The notes under the pieces were generated by a model. That model ran no database searches, was not told the origin of the DNA, and was given only the letters and a program-made list of their open reading frames with translations. This document shows, piece after piece, positions 44,062 to 49,687 of a DNA stretch of 64,000 bases; the stretch's first letter is position 1, and every line of letters begins with the position of its first letter. Source of the stretch: an uncultured Pseudanabaenaceae cyanobacterium (GTDB taxonomy: Bacteria > Cyanobacteriota > Cyanobacteriia > Pseudanabaenales > Pseudanabaenaceae); NCBI GenBank assembly GCA_937927915.1, contig CALGKB010000002.1, forward strand, positions 124,001 through 188,000. Reading direction: 5' to 3'. Position numbers and translations under genes: made by a program.

Positions 44062-44841
44062 CTATTTGAGTGCTACAGCATAGCTAACTGGCACCTGGGA
44101 CTCTTCTTTGATGGTGCGGGCAAAAGTCTCCAGATAATCTATGGAGAGGGGCTTGAGCCATGTACTGTTCTCTACTGCTGTGAGGTTTTCCCGTCCTTGC
44201 AACAGACGACGCAGGGGTTTCGGTCGCCGCGGAATGTTGAGATAAACCCGGTCGGGTTGTAGTTCTTTTAGGCGATCGATGTACATCTGTCTTTCCGCCT
44301 CTGACCAAATCGATAGGAGCATGGTTTGCACAGTCAAAGTGCCGCCAAACTGTTCTCGCCATCGCAAGAGGTTGTGCCAGAACACAGACCAATCCCAGGC
44401 AAATCGCGGTCGATTGACCCGCCTTACCCGCTCTGGGGTGACAGCATCTAACTTAACAGAGACTTCATCTGCCAGGCGCAAATCCCAACGGACGCTCTCG
44501 AGTCCCAGCATGCTGCCGTTAGTCAGCACTACCACAGGGGTAGCCGTTTTTTCCTTCACCGCAATTATGATTTCCCCCAGATTGAGGGCAAGGGTGGGTT
44601 CGCCACTGCCGCTGACGGTGATCACATCCAGGTCTTTCTGCAGTTTGGGCACCAACTCAGTAACCACTGCCGCCGTAGGCACAAAGGTCTGGCGCTGTAA
44701 AGACGATCGTTCTATCTGTCCCAACTGACAATAGACACAGTTAAAAGAACAGGTAGAAACCCTACCAATGGGGTCAATACCGAGGGAACACCCATAGCGC
44801 CAGGATTTCACAGGACCGTAGACAGGACTGAATTCGCTCAT
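44062..44841 (-). CDS. Radical SAM protein
   Basis: 259 residues. The cluster motif is CSFNCVYCQLG (CX3CX2C) with the earlier GPVKSWRYGCSLGIDP, followed by the SAM-binding GSGEPTL. This architecture is the short radical SAM family with no accessory Fe-S domain, often annotated simply as radical SAM protein; substrates are unknown. The start overlaps the Tll0287-like gene by four bases, making it the last gene of the sqr arm. A link to sulfur metabolism is positional only. Confidence 0.82.
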   Translation of the reverse strand: MSEFSPVYGPVKSWRYGCSLGIDPIGRVSTCSFNCVYCQLGQIERSSLQRQTFVPTAAVVTELVPKLQKDLDVITVSGSGEPTLALNLGEIIIAVKEKTATPVVVLTNGSMLGLESVRWDLRLADEVSVKLDAVTPERVRRVNRPRFAWDWSVFWHNLLRWREQFGGTLTVQTMLLSIWSEAERQMYIDRLKELQPDRVYLNIPRRPKPLRRLLQGRENLTAVENSTWLKPLSIDYLETFARTIKEESQVPVSYAVALK

Positions 44842-45404
44842 TTTTCTAATGCCTTCTCTAACTCTGGAATAATGACAGCGTACATACCCCGCAAATCCCC
44901 TACCTGGAAATTGTAAGCTAGGTCTTGGGGATATTTGGTCTGGATAAAGGGGGGGCGGCTGTCTTTAGCACCATGGCAGACTAGACAACTGGCTTGCACA
45001 TCAATGCGGCGAAAATAACGCACCCCTCGCTCATCCCGTTGCCAAAAACCCTGTAAATCCGGATGGGCAGCAAATTCTGCCAGCGCTCTCTCCTCTGCAG
45101 CATCCTGGGGCTTGTGGTTGGGATTGCGGTATTTAAGGGCTACCTGCCGCACCTGCCAACCGTTTTCTTGGGCAATTGCCTGCGCCCGCCTACCCACAGG
45201 GGCACACACTGCTTTGAAGGTATCCAAGGTGGGTTCTTCTGTGCTTCCCTCCAAAGTCCCTGCCAAACTCGTGCGCATCTGGTCTAACAGTTCTATCTCT
45301 GTTACAGCCTTAGCCAGCTCCCCAGGGTCAACACTAGCCCACGCCGCCAGGCTCCCACTCCACAACCACAGACAGATAAGTAAAAGACAGACTATTCTTC
45401 CCAT
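44838..45404 (-). CDS. Tll0287-like (DUF3365) c-type haem protein
   Basis: 188 residues from the ATG at 45404, which has AGGAGG nine bases upstream; a longer frame inside arsR is less likely. A signal peptide (IVCLLLICLWLWSGSLAAWA) leads into a DUF3365 domain with one CxxCH haem site (ASCLVCHGAKDS). Tll0287 itself is a PAS-like c-haem protein with a Cys axial ligand, thought to sense redox or gas. It lies between the sulfide regulator and a radical SAM enzyme, with a 13-base overlap with arsR. A role as a sulfide/oxygen redox sensor is an inference. Confidence 0.87.
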   Translation of the reverse strand: MGRIVCLLLICLWLWSGSLAAWASVDPGELAKAVTEIELLDQMRTSLAGTLEGSTEEPTLDTFKAVCAPVGRRAQAIAQENGWQVRQVALKYRNPNHKPQDAAEERALAEFAAHPDLQGFWQRDERGVRYFRRIDVQASCLVCHGAKDSRPPFIQTKYPQDLAYNFQVGDLRGMYAVIIPELEKALEK

Positions 45405-45709
45405 GATGAGATAACCTCCTTTGATGTCAGTGATAATTCCCTGAGGACTTCGGCACAAAAATTGAGATACTTGGGGTCAGCTACGGTGTAAATGCGACTG
45501 TTCCCCTCCTTGCGACAGCTGACAATCCCCCTTAGACGGAGCATCTGTAAGTGTTTGGAGACGTTCGCCTGACTAAGACCTGTCATAGCGCTGATTTCCC
45601 CTACGCTGCACTCCCCCTGGCATATGCACCAGAGAATGTGGAGGCGGCTCCGATCGCTCAGGAGTTTGAACAATTCCGCTAATCGATCGCAGTCGGGGGG
45701 TTCTGGCAT
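45392..45709 (-). CDS. ArsR-family regulator, cysteine-rich (SqrR/BigR-like role)
   Basis: 105 residues from the ATG at 45709, five bases after the sqr stop; the frame extends upstream inside sqr but does not look coding. The winged helix has LSDRSRLHIL and the recognition helix TGLSQANVSKHLQMLR. It has six cysteines (7, 28, 30, 34, 65, 85). The pair around Cys34 (GECSVGEI) and Cys85 in the last helix resembles the dithiol that senses persulfide in SqrR/BigR. With sqr directly upstream it is likely the sulfide-responsive repressor of this cluster. Confidence 0.88.
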   Translation of the reverse strand: MPEPPDCDRLAELFKLLSDRSRLHILWCICQGECSVGEISAMTGLSQANVSKHLQMLRLRGIVSCRKEGNSRIYTVADPKYLNFCAEVLRELSLTSKEVISSWEE

Positions 45710-45713
45710 AGGT

Positions 45714-47006
45714 TCACACTTGGATAACTTCTTGTGCTTGAGGGCGCTGGACAGCAGGACGAGATAAGGATAGCCCAAACAACACCTGCAAACCTAGCTT
45801 CTCAAACCAGGGTAATCCCAAGCCTAGACGCATTTTGAGTAAAAAATAACGTTCAAAGGCGGCTTTTACCCAATTTACCCACACTCCCTGCCAGGCAAAG
45901 GAGTAACGGCGTTTTCCTGTAACGGGGTCAGGCATGACAGGGGCGGCAACGTAGGCAATGCCTGTCTCACCATACTCGGCAAAGCAGAGGGCTTCTAGGG
46001 TCGGTTCCATGAAGGGCGGGGGCAATGTCCCTACCTGCACGGCAATGTTGTGGGCAGCGGCTAATGCCATCTCCTCCGTCATCTGCCCACTCTTGGGCAT
46101 CCCAATGGGGACAGGGGTTTTATCGGGCTGGTCTAGTTGCACTGCTACACCCACACCGTAGATATTGCTATAGTCCTGATGTTGCATCGTCGGTAGTACG
46201 GGTAAAAAGCCCTTGGCATTCCCTAGACCGGACACCCTTACAAATTCTGCCCCCCGAAATGCCGGTAAAAACATACTGTAACCAAACTTAAAGGTGCGAC
46301 CGTCGGCAAGTACTACCCGATCGGGCTGAATTTCCACCACCTCGGCATTGGTGACTGTATAGATACCCCGTCTTGCCAACAAACTTGCTGTCAGTTCATA
46401 GGCGTTTTGCAGACCCATAATGCCCAAGTGCCCGATGTAAGGTTCGGGAGTGACAAAGGTGATTCTGACCTTATCCCGGATGCCACGGCGGCGCAGCTCA
46501 GCTTCTGCCATAAGGACAAATTCGTAGGCTGGACCAAAACACCCCGCCCCCGGCAATGCCCCCACCACCAAATCCCCTTGCTGTTCTAGAAATTCTGCCC
46601 AAGCTGTGCGGGCAGCTAGCGCATGACTGGGGGTACAAATGGAATGACTGTATACCCCTGCCCCCGGCACCACGTCCGTCGCTAACTCGGAACCACTGGC
46701 AATTACCAAATAGTCGTAGTCCAACACCCGATCGGCGGTGTACACCCGTTGCAGCTTGGGGTCAATGCGTTCCACCTTCCCCTGCACCCACTCCAAGCCA
46801 TGGCGCTTTGCCAAGGTTGCCACCTCCAATTGCACCCGCTCTAGGGGGATATGCCCCAATGCTACCAACACCAAGCCCGGAATAAAGGTAAACTTGGGGG
46901 ACTGCGACACCAAGGTCACCTGATGCCCCCGCCCCAAATAATGCCGTAACTCGTAGGCGGCGGGTAACCCCCCCAAGCCTGCCCCCACTACTATTACTCT
47001 TGCCAT
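45714..47006 (-). CDS. sqr: Sulfide:quinone oxidoreductase
   Basis: A membrane-bound flavoprotein, 430 residues, that oxidises sulfide and reduces quinone. The N-terminal FAD motif is VVGAGLGGLPAAYEL. Three cysteines fall at the SQR catalytic positions: Cys124 (SHSICTPSH), Cys156 (GAGCFGPAYEF) and Cys341 (EALCFAEYGETG). The C-terminal amphipathic helices (LLKMRLGLGLPWFEKLGL) should anchor it to the membrane. All three cysteines together argue against a type II NADH dehydrogenase. It is the first gene of the minus arm of the divergent cluster. Confidence 0.9.
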   Translation of the reverse strand: MARVIVVGAGLGGLPAAYELRHYLGRGHQVTLVSQSPKFTFIPGLVLVALGHIPLERVQLEVATLAKRHGLEWVQGKVERIDPKLQRVYTADRVLDYDYLVIASGSELATDVVPGAGVYSHSICTPSHALAARTAWAEFLEQQGDLVVGALPGAGCFGPAYEFVLMAEAELRRRGIRDKVRITFVTPEPYIGHLGIMGLQNAYELTASLLARRGIYTVTNAEVVEIQPDRVVLADGRTFKFGYSMFLPAFRGAEFVRVSGLGNAKGFLPVLPTMQHQDYSNIYGVGVAVQLDQPDKTPVPIGMPKSGQMTEEMALAAAHNIAVQVGTLPPPFMEPTLEALCFAEYGETGIAYVAAPVMPDPVTGKRRYSFAWQGVWVNWVKAAFERYFLLKMRLGLGLPWFEKLGLQVLFGLSLSRPAVQRPQAQEVIQV

Positions 47007-47035
47007 AACCCCTCCAAAATTTCCTTATTAAGTTA

Positions 47036-47068
47036 TTGACTATTTAACCATATAGGAATATAGTTACA
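47036..47068. promoter_or_regulatory. Promoter with ArsR-type operator between sqr and the ChrA arm
   Basis: On the plus strand TTGACT (47036-47041), 17 bases, then TATAGT (47059-47064) is a strong sigma-70 promoter for the 4Fe-4S gene. Across its spacer and -10 lies an imperfect inverted repeat: TTTAACCATATA, GG, AATATAGTTACA, with nine of 12 arm pairs complementary. The 12-2-12 geometry is classical for ArsR/SmtB operators. Its position would block polymerase, and its location 38 bases from the sqr start could also affect the other arm. Confidence 0.6.
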
Positions 47069-47098
47069 TTATACATGGGTTAGTTGGGAAGTCAAGCT

Positions 47099-47608
47099 AT
47101 GGCGATCCAGTTAAGAGGCAAACCTAGTCAGTGGGTGACGATTTGGTTATTTTTTCTGATTGCGGTGGGGGGGTTATGGTATCCCTTGCTGGGGTACTTG
47201 ATGTTGGGGATGATGTTGGGGATTCCCCTGCTGGCATATTTCCGCAGTCGTTACTGGTGTGGCAATTTGTGTCCTAGGGGGGCATTCCTGGACATTGTGC
47301 TGTACCAGTTTAGTCCCCGTCGTCCCTATCCCCGTCTGTTTAAGAAGCAGAGTTTCCGCTGGGGAGTTTTTTCCTTCATTATGACGGTGTTTGCTATCCG
47401 CATGACCCTGGCGTGGGGGAACTGGCTGGCAGTGGGGGGCTTGTTTGTGAATATGTGCGTGGTCACCTCCATTGTGGCGATCCTGTTGGGTGTTCTGTTC
47501 AATCAGCGCGCCTGGTGTGCCATTTGCCCAATGGGTACGTTGCAGGAGTCCTTGGGGAAGTTGGGCAGCAAAGTCCACAAGAAGACGGTGGCAAAGTTAG
47601 ATGAATGA
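47099..47608 (+). CDS. NapH-like membrane 4Fe-4S protein
   Basis: 169 residues from the ATG at 47099 (GGAAG upstream; a TTG at 47084 is the alternative). Four hydrophobic segments alternate with cytoplasmic cysteine motifs of the NapH/RnfH polyferredoxin type: YWCGNLCPRGAFLD and AWCAICPMGTLQE. Two CxxxCP-like motifs (CGNLCP and CAICP) suggest Fe-S or quinone-linked electron transfer, but the usual C-terminal 2x4Fe-4S ferredoxin domain is missing. It is the first gene of the plus arm behind the ArsR operator. Confidence 0.78.
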   Translation: MAIQLRGKPSQWVTIWLFFLIAVGGLWYPLLGYLMLGMMLGIPLLAYFRSRYWCGNLCPRGAFLDIVLYQFSPRRPYPRLFKKQSFRWGVFSFIMTVFAIRMTLAWGNWLAVGGLFVNMCVVTSIVAILLGVLFNQRAWCAICPMGTLQESLGKLGSKVHKKTVAKLDE

Positions 47609-47925
47609 ACATAAGCCAGATCAGGGGTATGAGTTGTATTTCCATTTTGTTGTTGAGCAGGGAGTTGTCATGTACTTTTTTTGACCAAGGGGTGGCAATG
47701 GTGAAAGATGCCCTCCAACAGGAAGAAATGGGGGTGATGACAGCGCCGCTATCAGGTTCTGGGGGCATGATGTTTCCCTGTAATGTGGTCGTGCAGGAGC
47801 GGGAAGACAGCAAAGTGGAGGTAGCAGCGGTCGACCCTCTGGCTATGTTTGTGATGATTCCCAGGGCAAAGGAAATTGCTCTCTATGCCAGTGCCATGAT
47901 GCAACGATTAATCAATCATATTTAA
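47605..47925 (+). CDS. DUF302 protein with internal deletion
   Basis: 106 residues. FDQGVAMVKDALQQEEMGVMT matches the first helix and strand of DUF302, and MMFPCNVVVQEREDSKVEVAAVDPLAM matches its second half. The 35-40 residues that normally lie between them (the IDVxATLKxKLG and YxILGACNP region) are missing without a frameshift. The start overlaps the preceding gene by four bases; an ATG at 47629 is a possible alternative. DUF302 genes are often near sulfur-oxidation genes. It may be a real short form or a decaying copy. Confidence 0.68.
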   Translation: MNISQIRGMSCISILLLSRELSCTFFDQGVAMVKDALQQEEMGVMTAPLSGSGGMMFPCNVVVQEREDSKVEVAAVDPLAMFVMIPRAKEIALYASAMMQRLINHI

Positions 47926-47941
47926 CAGGAGTAGACGGCAG

Positions 47942-49186
47942 ATGAAGATAGAAGAAGCAGAGGTTTTAGAATTAGCGCCAGAAGCAAAGACTCCCAATTT
48001 GGCAGAGATGACTTGGTTATTTTTGAAGCTGGGTTCTATCGGGTTTGGCGGTGGGATTGCCATGATTGCCCTGATGGAACAGGAGTTTGTCAAACGGCGG
48101 CATTGTATAGACACAGAAGAGTTTTTACATGGGGTCGCCCTCAGTCAAATTTTGGGTTCTTTCCCCGTCAACACTGCTTTGTTTATTGGCTATCGTCTGC
48201 ACGGCTTTTTAGGGGGATTGTTTGGCAGTACGGTATTTCTCTTTCCCTCCTTTGCTGCCGTGATTATCTTGTCCTGGTTGTATTTTACCTACAGTAAAAT
48301 TCCTTCTCTGCAGAGCATTTTGGATGGCTTAGCCCCCGTCGTAATTGGCGTCATTTTAACGGCTGCCTGGTCGATGGGACAAAAAACGATCGGTTCCTAT
48401 GTCGCAGTGGGTATTGCCATTGGTGGTTGTATCGGTACGTTAACTAAAATCAATCCTGTGCTCATTTTAGGCGTAGGGGGAATTATTGGTTTGCTGTTAA
48501 AAATGACACCCCGTAAACCTCCCCTAAAAAAGCCTAGTGATCAACCCCAAGCCGCAATCGCTCTGCCTTTGGCAATGGAAGTTTTACCTCACAAAATTGC
48601 CCAGTTAACAGAACCTACCAGTCAACCTGCTACTATTAACTTAGTCACTTTGGGCTTGACATTTTTGAAAGTGGGTTTTGTCTTCTTTGGCGGTGGGTTT
48701 GTGTTAATTCCTGTGTTGAAACAACTGCTGATTGATAACTTACACTGGCTGACCCAAAAGGAATTTATTGATGGGGTGGCTATCAGTCAGTTAACCCCTG
48801 GTCCGATCGCTGTAATTTCTACCTTTGCTGGTTTTAGGGTTGCTGGATTAGCGGGGGCAATTGTGGCGACAGTGGGACTATTTTTACCCTCGATCGTGCT
48901 GATGTTTTTCCTGTCTATGTACTACCAAAAGGTGAAGCATTGGCAACCTGTAAAGCACTTTTTATCTGGGGTCAATCCGGCGGTAGTGGGGATGGTAGTT
49001 TCCGCTGCTATTAACTTAGCCCCTTCTGTGTTTCCCCTCGATCAACCGCTGAAAATTACCATCAATGCTATTTTGTTAGCCGTTTCTCTCTTAGTGATTG
49101 GCAAATTAAAGTGGCATCCCGCCATCGCCCTAGGGATGGGAGCAACTGTGGGTGTTATAATGAATTTTGTTCCAGGACTGGCATAG
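47942..49186 (+). CDS. chrA: Chromate transporter family protein (ChrA-like)
   Basis: A 414-residue two-domain CHR-family transporter. Each half has the signature pattern (FLKLGSIGFGGGIAMIALMEQE and FLKVGFVFFGGGFVLIPVLKQ) followed by GVALSQILGSFPVNTA and GVAISQLTPGPIAVIS. About ten to twelve membrane helices. ChrA exports chromate, a sulfate analogue. Next to sqr and under an ArsR operator, a sulfur oxyanion is a plausible natural substrate, but that is inference. The gap before it is 16 bases. Confidence 0.87.
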   Translation: MKIEEAEVLELAPEAKTPNLAEMTWLFLKLGSIGFGGGIAMIALMEQEFVKRRHCIDTEEFLHGVALSQILGSFPVNTALFIGYRLHGFLGGLFGSTVFLFPSFAAVIILSWLYFTYSKIPSLQSILDGLAPVVIGVILTAAWSMGQKTIGSYVAVGIAIGGCIGTLTKINPVLILGVGGIIGLLLKMTPRKPPLKKPSDQPQAAIALPLAMEVLPHKIAQLTEPTSQPATINLVTLGLTFLKVGFVFFGGGFVLIPVLKQLLIDNLHWLTQKEFIDGVAISQLTPGPIAVISTFAGFRVAGLAGAIVATVGLFLPSIVLMFFLSMYYQKVKHWQPVKHFLSGVNPAVVGMVVSAAINLAPSVFPLDQPLKITINAILLAVSLLVIGKLKWHPAIALGMGATVGVIMNFVPGLA

Positions 49187-49687
49187 GTGGCAATGCACAA
49201 ACTACAGGAGTGGGGTTTGACAAAGGACTGGTGGCGCAATCAACGGGGAGAGTATTGGGTGATTGGGCAGACAATTCTCAGTGTTGCCTATGTCCTTTTA
49301 CCTAGTGTGTCTGTCTTTTCTCTACCTTTTGCAGTGCGTATTAGTGCCACAGTTGTTTTGGGGGGGGTGGCTTTTCTCCTTGGTTTTACTGGTCTTTTTG
49401 CCTTAGGAGATAACCTCACTCCTCTACCTCACCCCAAAGAGGAAGGCACGTTGATCACCACAGGTGCTTATCGGTTTGTGCGCCATCCCCTGTATAGCAG
49501 TGTCATCTTTCTTGCCCTTGCCTACGCCGTTTGGTTAATGAGTATTACCCACCTAGTCGGTGTATTATTTTTGGTGGTCTTTTTCGATCGTAAAGCTGCC
49601 CAGGAAGAAAAATGGTTAACTGCTAAATTCCCAGAGTATGAGGAATACAGACGATCGGTGCAGAAGTTACTGCCAGGCATATATTGA
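49187..49687 (+). CDS. Isoprenylcysteine carboxylmethyltransferase-family membrane protein
   Basis: 166 residues with four hydrophobic segments and the ICMT/PEMT core TTGAYRFVRHPLYSSVIFLALAYAVW, then EEKWLTAKFPEYEEYRR. In prokaryotes such proteins methylate unknown thiols or lipids, or act in mercury/selenium methylation in some. The start is GTG at 49187, or ATG at 49193. It follows chrA with no gap and is the last gene of the plus arm. A thiol- or sulfide-methylating function would fit the locus but is not shown. Confidence 0.8.
   Translation: MAMHKLQEWGLTKDWWRNQRGEYWVIGQTILSVAYVLLPSVSVFSLPFAVRISATVVLGGVAFLLGFTGLFALGDNLTPLPHPKEEGTLITTGAYRFVRHPLYSSVIFLALAYAVWLMSITHLVGVLFLVVFFDRKAAQEEKWLTAKFPEYEEYRRSVQKLLPGIY

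Follow-up and report, generated by a model that had tools for sequence, protein, structure and literature searches.

A probable suo-type sulfide-response locus with a variable divergent arm in an uncultured Pseudanabaenaceae cyanobacterium

The window analyzed here is a stretch of 64,000 nucleotides from an uncultured Pseudanabaenaceae cyanobacterium (GenBank assembly GCA_937927915.1, contig CALGKB010000002.1, positions 124,001 to 188,000), and it carries a gene cluster built around a type I SQR. This cluster is very likely a sulfide-response locus of the published suo type. Two divergent arms flank a common promoter region of 92 bp (47007..47098), and all but one of the eight genes are intact. 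The core of the arrangement is already known; what is new in its variable part is a small membrane iron-sulfur protein, FER, and one gene, a member of the DUF302 family, is dead. The original prediction, made from the sequence alone, had described eight genes in two arms with a shared intergenic region and had known of no precedent for the full set. The arms and the region stand, but the DUF302 gene is a pseudogene, and precedents for the core exist in the Synechocystis suo locus on plasmid pSYSM and in the sqr clusters of Gloeomargaritales.

The reference system is suoSR/suoCT of Synechocystis sp. PCC 6803, which lies on pSYSM and consists of sll5036 (suoS), sll5035 (suoR), slr5037 (suoC), and slr5038 (suoT); results on it are taken from a review (PMC4307280) and from PMC5061849. 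SuoR binds the promoter region common to both gene pairs and represses them (PMC4307280), SuoS is a type I SQR, and SuoT acts in arsenite transport (PMC4307280, PMC5061849). Sulfide/arsenite responses of the suo genes have also been reported (PMC5061849). The gene order on pSYSM is ChrA-DUF302 // SQR-ArsR-DUF3365-DUF3122, where DUF3365 denotes the Tll0287-like family. The window shares the divergent SQR-ArsR and DUF302-ChrA arms, the single promoter region, and the Tll0287-like gene downstream of ArsR. It differs in its additional FER, ICMT-like, and radical SAM (RSAM) genes, in the decay of DUF302, and in having no DUF3122 gene.

In the window, the minus strand carries SQR, ArsR, the Tll0287-like gene, and RSAM, in that order, and the plus strand carries FER, DUF302, ChrA, and the ICMT-like gene. 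Apart from DUF302, every one of these genes is an open frame of full length. The minus-arm genes had been thought to overlap by 4-13 bases. The 13-nt overlap of ArsR with Tll0287 and the 4-nt overlap of Tll0287 with RSAM are real, whereas SQR and ArsR are separated by a gap of 4 nt when the conserved ArsR start (ATG 45709) is used. The window thus has a type I SQR, an ArsR gene directly downstream of it, and a divergent ChrA, all hallmarks of suo-type loci. What the window lacks is a divergent arm with an undamaged SuoC (DUF302), so the locus is better described as a variant of the suo type than as a full member.

The SQR gene (45714..47006, minus strand) encodes a SuoS-like protein that is 67% identical to sll5036. 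Alignment with the Aquifex and Acidithiobacillus structures places its Cys124, Cys156, and Cys341 at the positions of the catalytic cysteines, in agreement with the original prediction, and the protein is closest to type I enzymes of solved structure (phmmer to 3HYV, E=8.7e-87), with other SQR types scoring much lower. The SuoR-like ArsR/SmtB repressor (45392..45709, minus strand) has 105 residues and matches NF033788 at 82.6 bits (cut-off 55). Its cysteines are Cys28, 30, 34, 65, and 85. Four cysteines are conserved among 49 aligned ArsR proteins encoded next to SQR, and three of these are kept in the window protein. Against the BigR sulfur-sensing model NF040642 it reached only 42.5 bits for a cut-off of 155.

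The common region contains two promoter-like sites where 0.4 would be expected, one facing SQR (TTGACT-16-TATAAT, minus strand) and one facing FER (TTGACT-17-TATAGT, plus strand), both near consensus. In the equivalent region of M5B4 (a metagenome-assembled genome, 'Cyanobacteria bacterium M5B4', G002, the closest named relative of the window genome G000) and of two further genomes (G053 and G137), TAACTAWWTAGTTA forms a perfect 14-bp palindrome; Synechocystis carries it with 2 mismatches. The candidate SuoR operator of the window (47045..47066) reads TAACCATAT-AGGA-ATATAGTTA, a split version of this palindrome, and its half-sites overlap promoter elements of both arms. The exact 22-mer is unique in the genome. 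Matches to TAACTAWWTAGTTA with 3 mismatches are not above chance in the window (6 against 4 expected), and it is only the position that is telling. A broader role for TAACTAWWTAGTTA as the general operator of cyanobacterial SQR-ArsR loci was considered and rejected: up to 3 mismatches were found in 24 of 45 ArsR-adjacent loci and in 30 of 54 other SQR loci. Since the motif is no commoner in the former, it belongs to near relatives of the window.

Comparison with other cyanobacteria tied several of these genes to SQR. Among 101 cyanobacterial SQR loci, the same-strand neighbors of SQR included ArsR in 56, DUF3122 in 53, Tll0287 in 44, and RSAM in 6, and the divergent neighbors included DUF302 in 25, ChrA in 5, ICMT in 3, and FER in 2. 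Across 291 genomes, association with SQR stood at 58/64 for Tll0287, 28/33 for DUF302, 14/17 for FER, 31/50 for RSAM, and 9/10 for close ChrA. Fisher tests, which ignore kinship, gave p values of 1.7e-33 for Tll0287, 1.4e-12 for DUF302, 3.7e-6 for FER, and 7.7e-5 for close ChrA; with RSAM, these families co-occur with SQR far above chance (p 1.7e-33 to 7.7e-5). The predicted co-occurrence is in this sense borne out, but all eight families are found together only in the window, 1 of the 101 loci. M5B4 has every family except FER, in the order SQR-ArsR-Tll0287-RSAM // DUF302-ChrA-ICMT (L081), and unlike the window its DUF302 is intact and DUF3122 is present. In the third genome of the genus (G003), SQR has been lost and relics of ArsR and Tll0287 (L198:9161-9722) lie between an intact RSAM and an intact ChrA. 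Because these relics persist there, the locus was probably ancestral in the genus and lost in that genome, as judged from the surviving sequence.

The strongest of these associations concerns the Tll0287-like gene (44838..45404, minus strand), which is present in a single copy in the window genome, with GGAGG preceding its ATG. The product is an exported, stand-alone c-type haem protein (PF11845, 109.6 bits) that matches PDB 5b82 (E=5.8e-77), the structure of Tll0287 itself, and it carries the haem motif CLVCH at residue 140. A role of Tll0287 in oxidizing H2S was reportedly raised already by Motomura in the crystal paper of 2017, and Boussac is said to have found the protein with PsbA2-photosystem II in 2013. 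With a CXXCH motif inside a stand-alone DUF3365 domain, the window protein belongs to sCache_heme, whose stand-alone members are given redox-related roles in a preprint (PMC12889525). In the Thermosynechococcus-type operon that encodes Tll0287, SQR is followed by Tll0287 and DUF3122. The SQR-Tll0287 succession is like that of the window; unlike the window, this operon has no ArsR and no DUF302 arm, and FER and ICMT are paired at another site in the genome.

The divergent arm is where the window departs most from Synechocystis. Its DUF302 (suoC) frame (47605..47925, plus strand) is a decayed gene, judging from its sequence. The DUF302 proteins at 25 other loci begin with MYxFSK or a near variant and continue with ...GACHP...(F/Y)PCNVVVQ(E). 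The ATG that corresponds in the window to the start of these proteins (47670) lies in a different reading frame from the remainder, and nucleotide alignment with M5B4 and Synechocystis reveals 47- and 52-nt deletions, with an additional 6-nt deletion. The 26 nt between the two large deletions are translated in the wrong frame. The greater part of the invariant core is lost to the deletions, ACHP included, so that the ACHP and PCN core is not retained, and the Pfam match is confined to the last third of the frame. The truncated product is not predicted to fold, with a predicted local distance difference test score (pLDDT) of 49.6, a value that stands without an intact control. The frame that opens at 47605 is, on this evidence, open by accident, and because the gene is a pseudogene its ATGA overlap with FER is uninformative.

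Upstream of this remnant lies FER (47099..47608, plus strand), a NapH-like membrane Fe-S protein with a Fer4_5 match (E=4.8e-18), the motifs CGNLCPRG and CAICPMGT, and invariant cysteines at positions 54, 58, 140, and 143. The match extends to the Fer4_5 core only; against the NapH/MauN family models FER scored 23.6-24.5 bits, far below the cut-offs of 213-234. Its AlphaFold model is of moderate quality (pLDDT 70), and the best PDB match was no better than E=3.5. The closest FER proteins are those of Thermosynechococcus, and a best-segment identity of 88-91% hinted at recent transfer. This was rejected, since identity over the full length is 83-86% for protein and only 73-76% for DNA, values that argue against recent acquisition. 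Other FER genes occur in three clusters (L134, L135, and L204) with a metallo-beta-lactamase protein, rhodanese-YgaP, TauE, a PetC-like Rieske protein, and a divergent ArsR; the first two (L134:5196-9179 and L135) lie beside SQR. They resemble the window in placing the same FER family next to sulfur-oxidation genes and differ in their ArsR placement and in having no ChrA or DUF302 arm. Given its location in these clusters and in suo-type loci, FER tracks sulfide oxidation.

In one other suo-type locus (G084), FER is flanked by the SQR promoter on one side and ChrA on the other, with no DUF302. Both suo-type loci with FER before ChrA thus have DUF302 either broken or absent, and these two cases give a hint, of low confidence, that FER may have displaced DUF302 (SuoC) in the divergent arm. 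The G084 SQR (L199:8278-9491) is split into several frames, through either draft error or decay, while FER, ChrA, ArsR, and Tll0287 are open. It is improbable that FER acts as a functional SuoC substitute and forms, with the exported Tll0287, a relay across the membrane, for electrons or sulfur redox, that is dedicated to SQR. If it did, the relay would give the orphan crystallized Tll0287 protein a function.

By analogy with the published Synechocystis locus, from which repression, inducers, SQR activity, and ChrA substrate are carried over, the window locus most likely operates as follows. ArsR (SuoR), bound to the operator between the divergent promoters, would silence both arms; a single repressor common to the two is well supported by this analogy. 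Sulfide, persulfide, or arsenite would modify or bind the ArsR cysteines, releasing the protein and allowing both arms to be made. SQR would then oxidize sulfide to polysulfide and pass the electrons to plastoquinone. Entry of sulfide electrons into the quinone pool had been part of the original prediction and has good support from homology and from the Synechocystis locus. The step would serve detoxification and possibly sulfide-fed electron flow through photosystem I. The exported Tll0287-like protein would be a lumenal or periplasmic redox partner or sensor of the sulfide response, and the SuoT-like ChrA would serve as the membrane transporter for an oxyanion or arsenite. FER, in the promoter-proximal place of the decayed SuoC, could be a membrane Fe-S accessory for electron transfer, an assignment of low confidence.

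Several observations weigh against this account. The operator of the window is degenerate, the spacing of its half-sites being 8 bp wider than in relatives, which leaves repression by the window's own ArsR uncertain, and the conserved cysteine that this ArsR lacks is present in 88% of its relatives. Tll0287 often occurs without ArsR, which suggests that its regulation differs among lineages. The co-occurrence tests take no account of shared ancestry. As for the FER exchange, FER adjoins the DUF302 position in the window genome only, and the second FER-ChrA case carries the fragmented SQR.

The locus could instead respond mainly to arsenite, with ArsR sensing As(III), ChrA carrying arsenite, the ICMT-like and radical SAM proteins modifying arsenicals or thiols, and SQR as a side branch. 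The published arsenite transport by SuoT and arsenite response of the suo genes (PMC4307280, PMC5061849) favor this, as do 23 SQR loci with SBF-family transporter genes in the vicinity and the arsenic-type clusters described in 2024 for hot-spring Gloeomargaritales metagenome-assembled genomes, where type I sqr lies beside ArsR and ChrA as it does in the window (PMC11304991). Those clusters, unlike the window, carry ArsA and ArsB, and none is described with FER in the portion consulted (PMC11304991). The constant member of the loci is nevertheless an SQR with all three catalytic cysteines, and ChrA is divergent from it in just 5 of 101. No arsM, arsC, or acr3 gene was seen in the window cluster, and Tll0287, DUF302, and FER track SQR, with FER occurring in sulfur rather than arsenic clusters. 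A primarily arsenite-directed function is therefore improbable.

Somewhat less probable still is a decaying remnant, a locus being lost as in G003 and only partly functional. The DUF302 pseudogene, the degenerate operator, the loss of SQR-ArsR-Tll0287 in G003, and the fragmented SQR of G084 point that way, but all seven remaining genes are full-length and both promoter-like sites are near consensus. The single sulfide pathway of all eight genes favored by the original prediction, in which ChrA exports a sulfur oxyanion and the ICMT-like protein caps a thiol, draws on the tight spacing within each arm and on the several lineages that have ICMT next to FER or ChrA, yet is very improbable given that its DUF302 is broken, its RSAM persists in SQR-less G003 and is mostly unlinked elsewhere, its full set is found nowhere else, its ICMT falls under every specific methyltransferase cut-off, and its ChrA, for which sulfur-oxyanion export is unsupported, is 75% identical to a reported arsenite transporter.

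A suo-type sulfide response remains the favored reading, and comparison links SQR to two proteins that lack an assigned role, Tll0287 and FER. The locus displays gene exchange in its divergent arm and, in a sister genome, gene loss that has left relics behind. Useful leads are the strong association of Tll0287 with SQR and the FER/DUF302 exchange, which bear on cyanobacterial sulfide handling and on the anoxygenic photosynthesis of the early Earth.

The outer genes are less securely connected. The intact ChrA-family transporter (47942..49186, plus strand; TIGR00937, 241.5 bits, cut-off 171.7) is 75% identical to slr5038 (SuoT) and 87% identical to ChrA of G003. The ICMT/PEMT-like membrane methyltransferase (49187..49687, plus strand; PF04140, 36.8 bits) follows ChrA in M5B4, G053, and G137, and follows FER in Thermosynechococcus-type genomes. 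It scored 59.4 bits against protein-S-isoprenylcysteine O-methyltransferase (cut-off 160) and 28.9 against MddA (cut-off 270), and its sequence supports superfamily membership only. In the M5B4 draft, both ChrA and ICMT are broken into separate frames, which suggests frameshifts or sequencing errors. RSAM (44062..44841, minus strand; PF04055, motif CSFNCVYC) does not depend on SQR, given its retention in G003, and its standing as a true member of the locus is doubtful from its distribution. Any role of ICMT and RSAM in the locus is of low confidence.

The window genome as a whole has no DUF3122, a gene that in 53 of the 101 SQR loci comes after SQR or Tll0287 (for example, L008:8345-8884). A conserved protein without a Pfam match at E<=1e-4 lies downstream of SQR in 26 loci (for example, L127:10818-11297). 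Finally, psbA genes, encoding the D1 protein of photosystem II, are found near 19 SQR loci (for example, L099:6924-8087); low-oxygen psbA variants near SQR have been reported earlier (PMC5061849).

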